Shown: piece by piece, positions 547 through 41,884 of the stretch
Layout: each line of letters begins with the position of its first letter
How positions within the stretch are numbered: the stretch's first letter is position 1
NCBI GenBank assembly: GCA_903910445.1
Contig: CAIVZR010000060.1
Location: 1 to 64,000 of the forward strand
Length of the DNA stretch: 64,000 nt
Source: an uncultured Bacteroidota bacterium
GTDB lineage: Bacteria; Bacteroidota; Bacteroidia; UKL13-3
Reading direction: 5' to 3'
Notes under the pieces: model-generated
Seen by the model: the letters and a program-made list of their open reading frames with translations, nothing else
The model's database searches: none
Told to the model about the DNA's origin: nothing
Position numbers and translations under genes: made by a program

Positions 547-1095
547 TTACCAAATCATATCAATTTCAATAACGGATGGCTTATTTGCATAATTCGATGC
601 ACTGCAATATACATAGTCTTCTGGATTCAATACTATTCCAGCTCGAACAGGATTTTGATGTATATAGTTCATTTTTTGTTTGATAACTGGCATAGAAAAC
701 AATTCTATCGGATGATTTTCGTGTGTCCAAATTTGAAAATTACTATTTCTCGTATGCCTCGCTGCAGCAAATTCAAACCTTTTAAGCATCCAATCTTTGC
801 GGCTTTCAGCATCACCATGCATATCTTTTAATAATTGGTGTGCAGTAAACTTTTTAAAATCTCTAATCGTATCAGACAAATTATATCCTGATTTCGTTCC
901 AGCAATCAAATGTAGATGATTGGTCATAATCACATAAGCATATAGTTGAAGTCCTTTCTGTTTTCTGCAGAATTCAAAACTACTAGTGATTATTTGTTTG
1001 TAATGTGGTCGGGTGAAAATGTCCACCCATTCGACTACCTGAAAGGTCATATAATACGTAGCCGATTGATCATGGATTTGATAACCGTTATTCAT
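547..1095 (-). CDS. REP-associated tyrosine transposase (RAYT), Y1/HUH superfamily
   Basis: 182 residues. A single-strand DNA endonuclease/transposase of the Y1 (IS200-like) superfamily that in known systems recognises REP hairpins. The sequence shows the HUH metal-binding motif in YVIMTNHLHLI (about residues 54-64) and a candidate catalytic tyrosine in the late conserved motif YIHQNPVRAGIV (about 144-155), the usual RAYT arrangement. Length fits the family. The gene stands alone with no accessory gene and no IS-type ends; instead it is flanked on both sides by hairpin repeats in opposite orientation, which is the hallmark of a RAYT locus. The frame looks intact. RAYTs are normally single-copy domesticated genes, so it is probably not a mobile IS200/IS605 element. 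Confidence 0.92.
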   Translation of the reverse strand: MNNGYQIHDQSATYYMTFQVVEWVDIFTRPHYKQIITSSFEFCRKQKGLQLYAYVIMTNHLHLIAGTKSGYNLSDTIRDFKKFTAHQLLKDMHGDAESRKDWMLKRFEFAAARHTRNSNFQIWTHENHPIELFSMPVIKQKMNYIHQNPVRAGIVLNPEDYVYCSASNYANKPSVIEIDMIW

Positions 1096-3588: not shown

Positions 3589-4728
3589 CTACGAAAATTC
3601 TATTTCAAAAATACTTCCTTTAGGCTTATTATCAGCTATCCTCACCTTGGCATTGTGCTTTTTTGACACTTCTTTTACAATGTACAAACCCAGGCCTGTT
3701 CCCTTAGTACGTCGCGTATTCTCATTCCCTACACGAAAAAATTTATCAAACACTGCCTCCTTATCATCATCACTGATGCCTATACCTTGGTCGGCAACAC
3801 TCAATTTGGTTGCACCATCATTAAATAGCGCAATTTTTACGGTGCTTTGGGGTTCAGAATATTTGCAGGCATTCTCAATAAGATTGCTTACTACTAATAA
3901 GAGTGTAAATCGATCCCCATTTACTTGAATATTCGGCGCAATCTGGCTCTCTATATTATATTGACCTTGTTTGGCGTGTTTGAATTTATCTACTTCCTCT
4001 TCAATCAGTTCGCTCAGGTTCAAGTTATCGAAGATGTACTGATAGCCGCTGCTTTCAATCTTGGTAGCAACCAGCACATTTTCGGAGAGTTCATTAAGGC
4101 GCTCTATATCTTTTAAGGAGTTGGTAATCATCTTATCTATTTGCTCCTTGGTTAGTACACGTTTTTGTATGGTTTGCAGATAGAGCTTAATAGAAGCGAT
4201 GGGCGTTTTAAACTCATGGGTAACGGAGAGCAGGAAATTGCGCTGTTGCCTTTCGGTAGCAATTACCTTCCTGTTGCTTTGAATCACATAGTATATACCT
4301 AATATGAGAACTACAAAGAAGGTAATCCCTTCGGCAATCCACATACGTTCTATACGTCCAAACTTGTTTTTTAGATTAGAGAAGTTGGTTTCCATGTTTG
4401 AAAACCGTAGTACCGAATCCAGATTATCAGAATTGGTAAGATAAATAGGCTCCTTGGGATAGGTTTTAGCATAGTATTCTTTCACCTTGGGTTCACTAAT
4501 ATTCAATGGTACGCCCCAACGAACGAAATCGCGCCCTGCTTCGCCCTTGAATACATTTTGAAATGCCTGATGATAGAAATCTTTGCGAAGATCCTCGTAA
4601 TGGTTTTCGAGCAGGGACTTATCCGATTTATAATTCGATTTACTCAATTCGAATAAAGAATAGAACCACCAGCTGAAGGCTATTAGGATAAAAACGGCTA
4701 AGAAGTAGACTAAATTGTTGGATTTCAT
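3589..4728 (-). CDS. Membrane sensor histidine kinase
   Basis: 379 residues. A transmembrane helix at about 6-26, a periplasmic sensor segment of about 100 residues with no recognisable fold, and a second helix at about 131-150. The HisKA domain carries phospho-acceptor H171 in SVTHEFKTPI, and the HATPase domain has the N box (SNLIENACKYS), G1 (VADQGIGIS) and G2 (GTGLGLYIV). There is no HAMP domain. It phosphorylates the OmpR-type regulator encoded immediately downstream. The start is fixed by a perfect TACCTTTG box only 6 nt upstream of the ATG. Confidence 0.93.
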   Translation of the reverse strand: MKSNNLVYFLAVFILIAFSWWFYSLFELSKSNYKSDKSLLENHYEDLRKDFYHQAFQNVFKGEAGRDFVRWGVPLNISEPKVKEYYAKTYPKEPIYLTNSDNLDSVLRFSNMETNFSNLKNKFGRIERMWIAEGITFFVVLILGIYYVIQSNRKVIATERQQRNFLLSVTHEFKTPIASIKLYLQTIQKRVLTKEQIDKMITNSLKDIERLNELSENVLVATKIESSGYQYIFDNLNLSELIEEEVDKFKHAKQGQYNIESQIAPNIQVNGDRFTLLLVVSNLIENACKYSEPQSTVKIALFNDGATKLSVADQGIGISDDDKEAVFDKFFRVGNENTRRTKGTGLGLYIVKEVSKKHNAKVRIADNKPKGSIFEIEFS

Positions 4729-4734
4729 GTTTCA

Positions 4735-4742
4735 CAAAGGTA
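4735..4742 (-). promoter_or_regulatory. -7 box TACCTTTG of the two-component operon
   Basis: Read on the minus strand, TACCTTTG matches the Bacteroidota TAnnTTTG consensus exactly and is followed after 6 nt by the kinase ATG. The transcript would be almost leaderless. No good -33 TTTG was seen. Confidence 0.6.
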
Positions 4743-5045
4743 TCAAATAGGCAGTCATTTGGAAATTTGGAAAATAAATCGGGGCGGAAAAGGGTGTTTT
4801 TGGGCCTTTTTTGAAAAATAAACAGACTTTATTTTTAGGACACTATTTTAAAAAAAAGGTTATTTATAGAATCAAAAATTTTGATGTACTAAAAAATGTA
4901 CTTTATAAAATGCAGATAAAATCCAATCTGATTTCATTTGTTAAATTTTCGCCTCCTGTGCAAACACCGTGCCAAATAAAAACCTTGATTTCATTGGTTT
5001 TGGTAGTGTAATTTAAATGTCGGAATCTTGTACAGTGATTCAATT

Positions 5046-5203
5046 ATAACATCCGAGAGAGGAAATAAATATGACAACTATTTTAAACTATCAAGACGAG
5101 ACTAGCCCTTTAACTATGGGGTATTTATTACTGTGAGAATGTAACGAAACTGTGGACACTGCTATGAAAACAAACGTATTTAGTTCCTCTCCACGGATGT
5201 TAT
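5046..5203 (+). other. Long-stemmed structured element (candidate ncRNA, leader or MITE)
   Basis: The ends pair over 24 bp: ATAACATCCG (5046-5055) with CGGATGTTAT (5194-5203), GAGAGGAA (5057-5064) with TTCCTCTC (5184-5191), and TAAATA (5066-5071) with TATTTA (5177-5182). Only an A/CA internal loop and one A/G mismatch interrupt the stem. About 105 nt lie inside. No target-site duplication is obvious at the borders. It sits in a gene-free gap (4729-5349), about 150 bp upstream of a large secreted-protein gene in the same direction. It could be a structured 5' leader, a stand-alone RNA or a small inverted-repeat element. The rest of the gap, 4743-5045, is AT-rich with no clear signal. Confidence 0.6.
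5071..5136 (+). CDS. Possible 21-codon leader ORF inside the structured element
   Basis: ATG at 5071 opens a short frame encoding MTTILNYQDETSPLTMGYLL plus one more leucine, then TGA. An SD-like GAGAGG (5057-5062) lies 8 nt upstream, unusual for this phylum, and is base-paired in the long stem. A second short frame (5164-5208, 13 codons) overlaps the right arm. There is no independent evidence of translation; the ORF could be coincidental. Confidence 0.25.
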   Translation: MTTILNYQDETSPLTMGYLLL

Positions 5204-5349
5204 CTTAAAAAGAAAGAAGGATTTAGCCTAAGAAAAGAGAAAGAGAAGCCATTAGGGCACGATTGAAGAGAAAGAAAAGCCATCGGGGCAAGAATGAGGA
5301 GGATACCAAAACCAAGAAAACCAATTTACTATTTCAAATCTATCAGGCA

Positions 5350-8300
5350 ATGAAATCAACTTTATTCGATTTTGATCCCACAAAATCGAAAACAATCAAA
5401 ACCGGGGACAAAAGCACTATTCAGAAAGCAAAACTATTTTTCTTCTTGTTTTCTATTATACTGTTTAATACGCTTAACGCACAACAACCATTTTGTTCGT
5501 TAGTAGCTAATGGTGCCTTTGTAAGTACCCAATACAATCATACCGATCCGTTTAAGAGTGGAAAGGTTACTGGTTGGATAGCTAGCCATGGAGCTCCACA
5601 ATTCAATTTCAATAGCCCCCTTAGCGATTCGGCTTCTCCACAGATAGAAGCAGCTTATAATACCTTCACTGGTAATATCGGAAGTGGTATTCGTACCGCC
5701 AACAAGATTGCTTTCTATCAAGGCTTAAAATATTATATCGTATTTAACTACCGTAATGATAATGGTGTTGATGCCAAAGAACTTAATATTGCTTTAGTAG
5801 CTGACGCCGTTTGGGGAACCCCAGGAAATACCTTGCCTATTGGAGGATTGGGGAGTTTCACTCAAATTGGAACGAGTATTCAGGTACCCGGAACCAATTC
5901 ATCATGGACCAAAAAGATTGTTTGCTTTACCGCTCCTTATAGTAATGCCGATTTATGGTTTTATGCTAAAGTTGCAGCAGGAACTTCAACTTCAGCTCAA
6001 ATTGGGATAGAGAATATTGAAATTTATCAAGACTTTGACTTTGCAGGCTCACCTAAGGTTCGTTACCTATGCGATGAAACAGCAGTTTTAGGACTTCAAT
6101 CAACTAGCTGTACTCCACTTAACACCCTTCCTACCCATGCTTGGTATATCTCTGGATCGAACGCAGTAATTGCCAATACCCAAAGTATTTCAGTTTTACC
6201 TTCAGTTACCACAACCTACGTATTGGCTCGCGATAATGGAGCTTGTATCACTTTTGATACCGTGAAGGTAATGGCAGCTCACAAACCATATTTTACTTTA
6301 GGACCTGATACCACTATTTGTCAATGCGAGCCTTATACATTAGATCCAGGCATCCGTAATAATTGCTATAGCTATGTATGGAACGATGGATATGTTGGAG
6401 TGCCACGTATCATTAAAGAAAATTCAAAAACTGCCCCAGGTAAGTTAAGTCAAATTTATACCCTTACAGTAACTGATAATTGCTCAGGATGTAGCATTAC
6501 ACAAAGTGTTACCATCAATTTCAAACCAGTACCTAATTGCAAACCACGTTCAAAAGTATTTTGTGAAGGTGAGTTTCCACAATCAATAACCACCAAAGGA
6601 ATTGGAACCAGTTATAGCTGGAGCTGGAATGCAGCAGTTGCACCTAGTGCACCTTACGATGGCGCATCATTGGTAGTAAACAGTATTGGAACTTATGTAT
6701 GTAAAGTAACCGATGCTAATGGTGCATGTACTTATGGTTATGATACCATCACCGTTAATCCTTGGGATAGCATGCAATTTGATATTGTTGCCAACCAATC
6801 ATATAGCCCTTGCGATCGTAAAGGATTGTATTTGGTAAATACCTACGAACAAGAAACCCCAATCAAATGGTATAAAGATGGTGTTTATGTTCATACTGGC
6901 ATTGCATTATATACTTCTGAGAATGGATTGTATACTGGAGAGTTGGTTTCACCATTCGGATTTTGTACTAAAACAGATACTTATAAATTAACCTTTATCG
7001 ATCCACCCATCGTAAATTTATCTTCACTTTATGGCAGCTATTGCCGTAATGGAAGCGATACCGTATTGGATTTCACTTATTGCGATACTTGTACCAAAGA
7101 TATGGGACATGTAACCAGCATCAAATGGAGTGGAAACGGAGTGATTTTCTCTAACAACAAATATTACTACTCACCTAGTCGCGCATTATGTGGTAATAAC
7201 TTATTAACTGCTACCATCGTTTATACCAAATATGATATTATCTGTACCACCTATGTAAATACCAATGCTTACAAAATTTGTCCTTTGGTACTCGATAGCG
7301 TATTACCATTATGTGCTGGCGATGGCGATGTGTTTTTATACAATCAAGGCGCTTTAATTGCCAATGCCAATATTTATGGCAACGGAGTTTATCAGGAAAA
7401 CGGAACTAAATTATACAAATTCAGCCCGAAACAAGCAGGTGCTGGCTTACATACCATTCGTTATTACTATAGTGATAGCGCAGGTTGCAATGGATGGGAC
7501 AGTATCAAAGTAAAAGTATTAGGAAAACCAACCATCAAATTATGGGCTGGCGATTGTAATAATGGCGCACCTACATGGAATGTATTGGTTTATGCTGCAC
7601 AAGCCGAAGGCGATATGTACACCTTAGAATCAAGCGAATGGAATGGTGCAAGTCATTATGGAATTGGATACAATAAGAATTTTGCTACCACATCATTCTG
7701 GGGAAGTACTAAAGGAAACTCAATGTCAGGACATACCTATTGGTTCAAAGTAACCAACAGTATTGGTTGTTATGATAGCATGAGCTTAACCATTGGTAAA
7801 GAAAAACCTATCCATTTAACTTATGACCCTACAGCTTGTATTAGCAAAGGTGTTCCACTTACAGCATACTATAATAATACCTTAATTGATGGAAATTCAT
7901 ATCCAGGAAATATCGCTTATATCTGGGATAATGATGATACCAGCTTTATCAGTACTTTGACTGGAGCTGATAACGATTATGCCAATATGATGAGTCAAGT
8001 AAAAACTCATCCGGTATATGGTTCTAAGCATATTGAAAATTCAGCCATTGCAAAACACAAAGTATTTACTATTGGATGGCACCGCGTAAGAGTATTAACC
8101 TTTGGAGGTTGCGAATACACTGATAGTATTTTTGTACCATTCGAATGTGGTAACTGTAAAACTGATGTTGAAAATATCGTGATCACTACTTCAGTAAAAT
8201 GGAGTTCAGAAGAAAGAGTGATTAATGGCAATCTTATAATTGAAGCAGGTGGTAACTTAGAAATTAACAATTGTAATATTCACTTCACCAATAATAGCAG

Positions 8301-9147
8301 AGTCATTGTAAAGAACAATTACGGTTCTAGTAAATATTCTGGTACACTTACCATCATCAATAGTACCTTGGATGGTTGCAGCAACTGGAAAGGAATTGAA
8401 GTTTGGGGTACCACCGATTTATATGATTATAATGGAACCAATATTAATTTAGGTGATGATCCAAGAACAAAATTGCAAGGAAACAATATGCGTCAAAGCA
8501 ATAATATCAATACCACACATAGCTGGGCTTGGGTATATGCTGTTAACAGCGTAATTAAAGATGCTGATATTGCAATCTTCGTAGGGAAATATGATGATAC
8601 TGACGACAAAAATTATTCAATGGAAGTAATTTCAGGAGGAATGGCCTTTGTGGACAATTGTACCTTCAAGAATAATTATGTAGATGTAGTATTCACGCCA
8701 CGCCCAGGAGCAGAATTGATAAGCGGTAAAAATGCTTGGAATGCTAGTTATATCGTAAGCTGTACCTTCGATTCGTTGCGTAAATCAGCTCCAACCGGAA
8801 CAAAAATGTACTGGTGCGATCAAAATGGAGCTACCAATCCATTGGGCAAAACCATTATCAATCAAAGTGCCACTTGCCATATTGTTGATTTGACCGAGAC
8901 CTTATTCCAAGATCAAAATTCACCCATGATATATTGGGCTTTTACTGGAAATGGCTTTGGAAAAGTTGATGGAGGTATGAATTTGGTAAAAACAACATTA
9001 AAGAGAGATGCACGTATTCCATATACGATGCCACATGCAGAATATAGTTCAAATCCTATGACCCAACACTTGGGAATTTATAGTATGAATCAAATAAAAT
9101 CAAAGTTCCAAAACACGATTAAAGACAGTAATTGTAATGATTGGTAA
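5350..9147 (+). CDS. Very large secreted protein with Ig/PKD-like repeats and a beta-helix-like C-terminus
   Basis: 1265 residues from the ATG at 5350. The frame stays open upstream to a stop at 5224 but offers only a TTG (5263) and encodes a very basic stretch; the ATG gives an N-terminus with a hydrophobic segment (KLFFFLFSIILFNTLNAQQ), a plausible signal peptide with a long n-region. The middle consists of Cys-containing Ig/PKD-like modules (for example YVWNDGYVGVPRIIK and TVTDNCSGCSITQSV). From about residue 970, short strand-turn repeats (LIIEAGGNLEINNCNIHF, LTIINSTLDGCSNWKGIEV) resemble a right-handed beta-helix. It is probably a cell-surface or extracellular adhesin-like protein. Unlike its neighbours it has no recognisable T9SS C-terminal domain and ends abruptly at KDSNCNDW. 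No specific function can be assigned. Confidence 0.8.
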   Translation: MKSTLFDFDPTKSKTIKTGDKSTIQKAKLFFFLFSIILFNTLNAQQPFCSLVANGAFVSTQYNHTDPFKSGKVTGWIASHGAPQFNFNSPLSDSASPQIEAAYNTFTGNIGSGIRTANKIAFYQGLKYYIVFNYRNDNGVDAKELNIALVADAVWGTPGNTLPIGGLGSFTQIGTSIQVPGTNSSWTKKIVCFTAPYSNADLWFYAKVAAGTSTSAQIGIENIEIYQDFDFAGSPKVRYLCDETAVLGLQSTSCTPLNTLPTHAWYISGSNAVIANTQSISVLPSVTTTYVLARDNGACITFDTVKVMAAHKPYFTLGPDTTICQCEPYTLDPGIRNNCYSYVWNDGYVGVPRIIKENSKTAPGKLSQIYTLTVTDNCSGCSITQSVTINFKPVPNCKPRSKVFCEGEFPQSITTKGIGTSYSWSWNAAVAPSAPYDGASLVVNSIGTYVCKVTDANGACTYGYDTITVNPWDSMQFDIVANQSYSPCDRKGLYLVNTYEQETPIKWYKDGVYVHTGIALYTSENGLYTGELVSPFGFCTKTDTYKLTFIDPPIVNLSSLYGSYCRNGSDTVLDFTYCDTCTKDMGHVTSIKWSGNGVIFSNNKYYYSPSRALCGNNLLTATIVYTKYDIICTTYVNTNAYKICPLVLDSVLPLCAGDGDVFLYNQGALIANANIYGNGVYQENGTKLYKFSPKQAGAGLHTIRYYYSDSAGCNGWDSIKVKVLGKPTIKLWAGDCNNGAPTWNVLVYAAQAEGDMYTLESSEWNGASHYGIGYNKNFATTSFWGSTKGNSMSGHTYWFKVTNSIGCYDSMSLTIGKEKPIHLTYDPTACISKGVPLTAYYNNTLIDGNSYPGNIAYIWDNDDTSFISTLTGADNDYANMMSQVKTHPVYGSKHIENSAIAKHKVFTIGWHRVRVLTFGGCEYTDSIFVPFECGNCKTDVENIVITTSVKWSSEERVINGNLIIEAGGNLEINNCNIHFTNNSRVIVKNNYGSSKYSGTLTIINSTLDGCSNWKGIEVWGTTDLYDYNGTNINLGDDPRTKLQGNNMRQSNNINTTHSWAWVYAVNSVIKDADIAIFVGKYDDTDDKNYSMEVISGGMAFVDNCTFKNNYVDVVFTPRPGAELISGKNAWNASYIVSCTFDSLRKSAPTGTKMYWCDQNGATNPLGKTIINQSATCHIVDLTETLFQDQNSPMIYWAFTGNGFGKVDGGMNLVKTTLKRDARIPYTMPHAEYSSNPMTQHLGIYSMNQIKSKFQNTIKDSNCNDW

Positions 9148-41545: not shown

Positions 41546-41635
41546 TTGGATTATATTCCTAACCCTTACGTTTGTGGAAGGATTCTACAACCAAATTTAT
41601 GGATCGTAGAAAATAATTCGATTGAAAATTGTATT

Positions 41636-41718
41636 AACTACGGAGTAGTTCAACAATAATAGCCATAGGTGAAACCTATGGTTAAATGATGTACTCTATT
41701 CCCAACCCCAACGGGGTT
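41636..41718 (+). repeat. Palindromic cassette, direct copy
   Basis: Three hairpins in series: AACTAC-GGA-GTAGTT (41636-41650), CCATAGGT-GAA-ACCTATGG (41663-41681) and AACCCC-AAC-GGGGTT (41704-41718). The 41413-42093 gap has no gene; besides the cassettes and the htpG promoter it is plain AT-rich sequence. Confidence 0.88.
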
Positions 41719-41798
41719 GAACTATAAAAGATATTTGTCAATTCAAATATTCCTGTATTAACTCACTTATTCAATTTTAATTGCATTTGAGAAATGTT

Positions 41799-41884
41799 GA
41801 ACCCTTCCAGGGTTCTGTTCTTGGGTGCATTCGTCTACCATAGGTTTCACCTATGGCTATTGTTGTTCAACTGCTTCGCAGTTG
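41799..41884 (-). repeat. Palindromic cassette, inverted copy
   Basis: The same three-hairpin order on the opposite strand: GAACCC/GGGTTC (41799-41815), CCATAGGT-TTC-ACCTATGG (41838-41856) and CAACTGC-TTC-GCAGTTG (41868-41884). It forms a large imperfect inverted repeat with the copy at 41636-41718. Confidence 0.88.

Follow-up and report, generated by a model that had tools for sequence, protein, structure and literature searches.

Among the systems described so far, the closest to the element analysed here are structured leaders, 6S RNAs and invertible promoters. In F. psychrophilum, 64 structured 5' regions were found and the median 5' UTR is 24 nt (PMC9723704). These structured 5' UTRs are similar to our element in that they have no Rfam match and lie ahead of diverse Bacteroidota genes; nevertheless, they were identified by RNA-seq in another family, whereas the present element precedes a giant secreted-protein gene and is known from sequence alone. 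The stabilising stem-loops of ompA and papA in E. coli and of the aprE leader in B. subtilis, as they are cited in PMC3997798, share with it a strong stem near the 5'-end of an mRNA for a secreted or surface protein, the 5'-end being a predicted one in our case. Compared with those stems as cited there, the loop of the element exceeds 100 nt and contains motifs that are both conserved and unpaired, and its stem is predicted to be preceded by 6-13 unpaired nt.

The 6S (RF00013) and 6S-Flavo (RF01685) RNAs have a similar length of about 160 nt, a long closing stem and an open centre, but the element has no match to either model and is confined to genomes that carry the giant gene. Finally, the invertible promoters of Bacteroidales (PMC8748976) also consist of inverted repeats upstream of a surface-related gene; here, in contrast, the arms are imperfect, no promoter lies between them and the orientation is constant.

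The locus within the genus

The window, that is, the whole stretch of DNA analysed, comprises positions 1-64,000 (forward strand) of contig CAIVZR010000060.1, from an uncultured Bacteroidota bacterium (UKL13-3, GCA_903910445.1). Its own genome (G000) was compared with four others of the same genus (G001-G004), and 64 genomes of the family were covered in all. The records of the genus are MAGs labelled Bacteroidetes bacterium, presumably of lake origin to judge from the isolate names. Around the element, which lies at 5046-5203, we distinguish the following features:

547-1095, reverse strand: REP-associated tyrosine transposase gene (NCBIfam NF047646, E 3.8e-27)
3589-4728, reverse strand: histidine-kinase gene
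4820-4843, forward strand: 24-bp block AAACAGACTTTATTTTTAGGACAC, near-identical in the four giant-gene genomes (one change in G004) and absent from G001
5000-5031, forward strand: predicted sigma-A promoter, from its consensus match (TTTG -33 box, 20-nt spacer, degenerate -7 box GAATCTTG)
5036-5349, forward strand: putative 5' untranslated leader, with a start site predicted from the promoter
5350-9147, forward strand: giant secreted-protein gene (1265 aa, ATG at 5350, signal-peptide-like N-terminus)

The initial annotation had described a gene-free gap upstream of a giant secreted-protein gene, and both statements hold: the element contains a single ORF of 21 codons, which is not conserved, and the giant gene follows as listed. 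The giant protein has no Pfam or NCBIfam family, its full-length relatives were found only within the same genus, where there are also several large paralogues, and no relative was found on viral contigs. The giant proteins of the G002 and G004 homologues show 65-66% identity.

In four of the five genus genomes (G000, G002, G003 and G004), the kinase gene and the giant gene have the element between them. The G003 copy matches the window element at 99% and is split across two contig ends, whereas G002 and G004 carry a diverged version in the same intergenic region. All four genomes possessing the giant gene have the element upstream of it, in G003 over the two contig ends. In G001 the kinase gene directly adjoins the rpsP region; the element, the giant gene and the 24-bp block are all missing there, and the rest of that genome contained no match to the element or to the block. 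The element, the conserved upstream block and the giant gene are jointly present in four genomes and jointly absent in the fifth. A distant paralogue of the giant gene in G001 (L093) has no comparable element upstream, its best duplex (-21.9) being inside the shuffle range.

Regarding the G003 assembly, the break falls inside the 3' arm of the element, between the end of L028 (G003:C149) and the start of L029 (G003:C140), which overlap by 28 bases; it may stem from the strong hairpin or from a population variant.

Other parts of the window deserve a short description. The 24-bp block is single-copy, precedes the predicted start site by about 200 bp and is possibly a regulator site. The -7 box of the kinase gene (TACCTTTG, window 4735-4742) is found a few bases before the start codon in three species, so near that the kinase mRNA may be nearly leaderless. 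The transposase gene is flanked by REP arrays at 7-541 and 1197-1438 in opposite orientation (GCTCCGCGAAGTCTCTGACTTCGTGGAA...GCAAATC..AGATTTGC), and together they make up a Bacteroidota RAYT/REP locus. A second intergenic inverted repeat at 41631-41880 (AATAGCCATAGGTGAAACCTATGGTT ... CTACCATAGGTTTCACCTATGGCTATT), with nested palindromes and a duplex of -44 kcal/mol, looks like a different REP-like repeat.

Fold, conservation and searches

The element itself can be divided into five parts:

5046-5073, forward strand: 5' arm of the closing stem, from the fold (homologous arms L025 2345-2366 in G002 and L026 2238-2253 in G004)
5074-5100, forward strand: conserved 5' internal loop (ACTATTTTAAACTATCAAGACGAG...), from alignments, predicted mostly unpaired by unpaired probabilities
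5105-5122, forward strand: internal hairpin (GCCCU/GGGGU in the window), from pair probabilities; its sequence varies but it is present in three species
5154-5173, forward strand: conserved 3' internal loop (GGACACTGCTATGAAAACAA), from block identity, the best conserved part of the element
5173-5203, forward strand: 3' arm of the closing stem, from the fold, with compensatory changes to the 5' arm across species

The stem had been annotated as 24 bp with one small internal loop and one mismatch, and folding of 5046-5203 recovers it with 24-26 pairs. Its outermost part, ATAACATCCG/CGGATGTTAT, comprises 10 bp and is followed by a 1x2 internal loop (A opposite CA); then come a second block of 8 bp, GAGAGGAA/TTCCTCTC, an A-G mismatch and an innermost block of 6 bp, TAAATA/TATTTA, with two further possible pairs (U-G and G-C). 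The closing stem is retained when the complete leader is folded. The pair probability of the internal hairpin is 0.77-0.89 in the window, 0.94-0.99 in G002 and 0.85-0.99 in G004.

The element has a predicted energy of -39.9 kcal/mol, whereas its dinucleotide shuffles average -25.0 (z = -4.3) and none of 200 was as good; the opposite strand gives a nearly equal value (z = -4.2), as one would expect of an inverted repeat. At their actual spacing the two arms form a duplex of -32.5 kcal/mol; when the intergenic region was shuffled 300 times, the best duplex averaged -18.5 and never went beyond -30.0. The claim that the pairing is beyond chance is thus borne out against shuffled sequence. However, similar duplex energies occur elsewhere in the 64-kb window, namely in a few coding stretches, in the REP cluster at the window start and in the intergenic palindrome at about 41.66-41.86 kb, and therefore the fold is strong without being unique in the 64 kb. 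What convinces us about the element is its conservation rather than the pairing alone.

In both G002 and G004 the homologous place is the strongest duplex of its intergenic region, and the elements there (L025:2345-2494 and L026:2228-2388) fold with z = -7.4 and z = -4.8, respectively, so that these strongly diverged homologues lie still farther from chance than the window copy. The aligned arms are AACATCCGAGAGAGGAA/TTCCTCTCCACGGATGTT in G000, AACCCCTAAGAGCGG/CCGCTCTTAGGTCGTT in G002 and AACACCTAGGAGAGAAA/TTTCTCTCCTAGGTAGTT in G004. The G000 arms pair throughout, with the 1x2 internal loop displaced by a few positions relative to the other species. Compensatory changes in the arms, named in the initial annotation as the feature to look for among homologues, are present, although the set contains only three distinct sequences (G000, G002 and G004): in this alignment three pairs are changed on both sides (A-U/G-C, A-U/C-G and G-C/A-U). 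As 37 of 500 column shuffles equalled this number and only three sequences are available, the compensatory count alone is weak support. Paired cells made up 92.9% of the model-fitted alignment and 42-59% when the partners were slid by 1-3 columns; since the alignment was fitted to the stem, these pairing counts are biased in its favour. Taken within these three distinct sequences, homologues with compensatory arm changes support a structured RNA. The element is real, and its structure is conserved in three diverged species.

The two conserved loops are A-rich. The block 5149-5173 shows 64% identity across the three species (80% between G002 and G004), whereas identity is 0-48% in the remaining blocks between 5049 and the start codon. 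The 3' loop motif ACAC..CTA.GAAAACAA occurs once per genome. The loop motif was clearly repeated in direct orientation (AACTA..AAAACAAGAC) only in G002 and not in G000 or G004, and the two-site model was given up.

A covariance model based on the G000, G002 and G004 sequences (R2) matched four copies among the 64 family genomes, with E between 1.6e-14 and 1e-25; in the other 59 family genomes, outside the genus, it gave no match at E up to 0.05. An earlier model built from G002 and G004 only (R1) had given weak matches outside the genus (L058-L067 and others), and the examples inspected had a poor loop match or several broken pairs. Since R2, which includes the window copy, leaves no match outside the genus, we took these R1 matches as chance.

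The initial annotation did not relate the element to any known RNA family, and this agrees with Rfam 15 (4227 models), where no match was found within 5046-5203 at E up to 10. In the genus, RF00013 had no match at E up to 10 and RF01685 none at E up to 1; a 6S RNA is therefore unrecognised by either model in G000-G004. Further copies in the genome, which had been proposed as a sign of a MITE, were found neither for the element nor for the 3' arm alone with three mismatches allowed.

Transcription signals and competing explanations

The Bacteroidota -7 consensus is TAnnTTTG (PMC9723704), and the promoter consensus has been given as TTTG/TANNTTTGY (PMC8748976). A promoter-like site of this kind ends 10-14 bp before the stem. 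It reads TTTG-N20-TAAACTTG in both G002 and G004; the window has TTTG-N20-GAATCTTG, a weaker form with two mismatches in the -7 box. In G004 no other match lies on the forward strand, and G002 has a second one farther upstream. The predicted start site would lie about 6-13 nt ahead of the stem, giving a leader of about 314 nt in G000, 276 nt in G002 and 262 nt in G004; a leader of some 300 nt is long compared with the 24-nt median of F. psychrophilum (PMC9723704). The distance from the element to the start codon is about 150 nt in the window and 100-120 nt in the relatives, and no consensus match with up to one mismatch was found on the forward strand of this interval in G000, G002 or G004.

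This interval contains in the window two tandem 31-nt copies (AAGAGAAAGAGAAGCCATTAGGGCACGATTG) at 5235-5296, 84% alike, each carrying a small GCC/GGC hairpin; the repeats are not kept in G002 and G004, which have other hairpins there. Complementarity of the promoter block to the start-codon region was also considered and is not retained in the relatives. A short ORF across the 3' arm (ATGAAAACAAACG...) is not conserved, nor is the 21-codon ORF, and therefore leader-peptide attenuation was dropped; furthermore, we saw no conserved alternative fold involving a terminator or the start codon. An intrinsic terminator was rejected, the loop being longer than 100 nt and no T run following the stem in G000 or G002.

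A structured leader, a free-standing RNA and a MITE had been put forward at the outset. A structured RNA is supported and the promoter-like site favours its being a leader, whereas the MITE reading fails for a single-copy, syntenic element. We favour a leader because the element has a fixed position before one gene, is gained or lost with that gene and has a promoter-like site ahead of it, and because nothing recognisable ends or restarts transcription between element and gene.

The same promoter-like site, right before the stem, would also suit a small RNA of about 160 nt that has this promoter to itself, acts in trans and lies ahead of the giant gene by chance. The compact closed fold, with conserved unpaired loops able to pair with targets, is compatible with it, the size is near that of independent RNAs in F. 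psychrophilum, whose median is 176 bp (PMC9723704), and the G004 stem is followed by a run of seven T. However, G000 and G002 have no such run and the window has no terminator-like hairpin downstream of the element. The giant gene would moreover require a second promoter, for which the interval before its start codon offers no candidate in three species, and the element occurs only where the giant gene does. We consider such a small RNA the main rival of the leader, possible but less probable.

A role at the DNA level, as an invertible switch (a phase-variable promoter), a cruciform or a protein-binding site before a surface-protein gene, appears improbable. Bacteroidota invertible promoters are indeed laid out with inverted repeats that enclose a short segment ahead of a surface- or secreted-protein gene (PMC8748976), and the G003 assembly break within the 3' arm, with its overlapping contigs, could be read in the same way. 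Nevertheless, neither strand of the element contains a promoter-like match with up to one mismatch in the three species, all four assemblies show one orientation, the arms are imperfect, with comparable 1x2 internal loops from species to species, and no recombinase was found among the 15 window proteins scanned.

A diverged 6S RNA is very improbable. Its length, long closing stem, open centre and promoter-like site would be right and the genus has no recognised 6S, but an RNA present in only four of 64 family genomes, all of one genus, and absent from G001 is unlike a housekeeping RNA, and neither 6S model matches it. A MITE or other mobile repeat, suggested by the terminal inverted repeats and by the RAYT transposase gene about 4 kb upstream, has next to nothing left in its favour: element and arm are single-copy, there is no obvious target-site duplication, the element is unlike the REP repeats beside the RAYT gene, and it is syntenic and in the same orientation in species whose giant proteins have diverged to the identity given above.

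A candidate leader of the giant-gene mRNA

On balance, it is somewhat more probable than not that the element serves as a structured 5' leader in the mRNA of the giant gene. We infer from the sequence that it is transcribed, that it shares its transcript with the giant gene and that it has a regulatory effect. Transcription would begin shortly before the stem, and the nascent RNA would fold into a domain closed by the long stem and containing the small hairpin and the two single-stranded loops. These loops would most likely be shown to a trans-acting factor, which may be an RNA-binding protein, another RNA or a ligand. Either the binding of this factor or the 5'-proximal stem itself would then set the stability or the translation of the long mRNA. 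The conservation of the loops points to a binding partner; by analogy, the 5'-proximal stem points to protection of the mRNA as in ompA-type leaders, although the unpaired nt predicted at the 5'-end make such protection less certain.

More tentatively, the element may represent a new class of regulatory leader restricted to the genus, in which two loops held by a fast-evolving stem would bind one particular factor and so determine how much of the giant protein is made. As a candidate leader RNA it is new, whereas its general kind is a known one; it is so far confined to one genus and one gene, and the claim is modest, concerning a single gene family in a single genus and based on sequence evidence. 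Giant secreted proteins are recurrent in environmental Bacteroidota, and little is known about how their costly expression is controlled. A leader tied to one giant gene would thus be a concrete and testable case of control after transcription start, and a structured RNA restricted to one lineage can be recognised from just three or four genomes.
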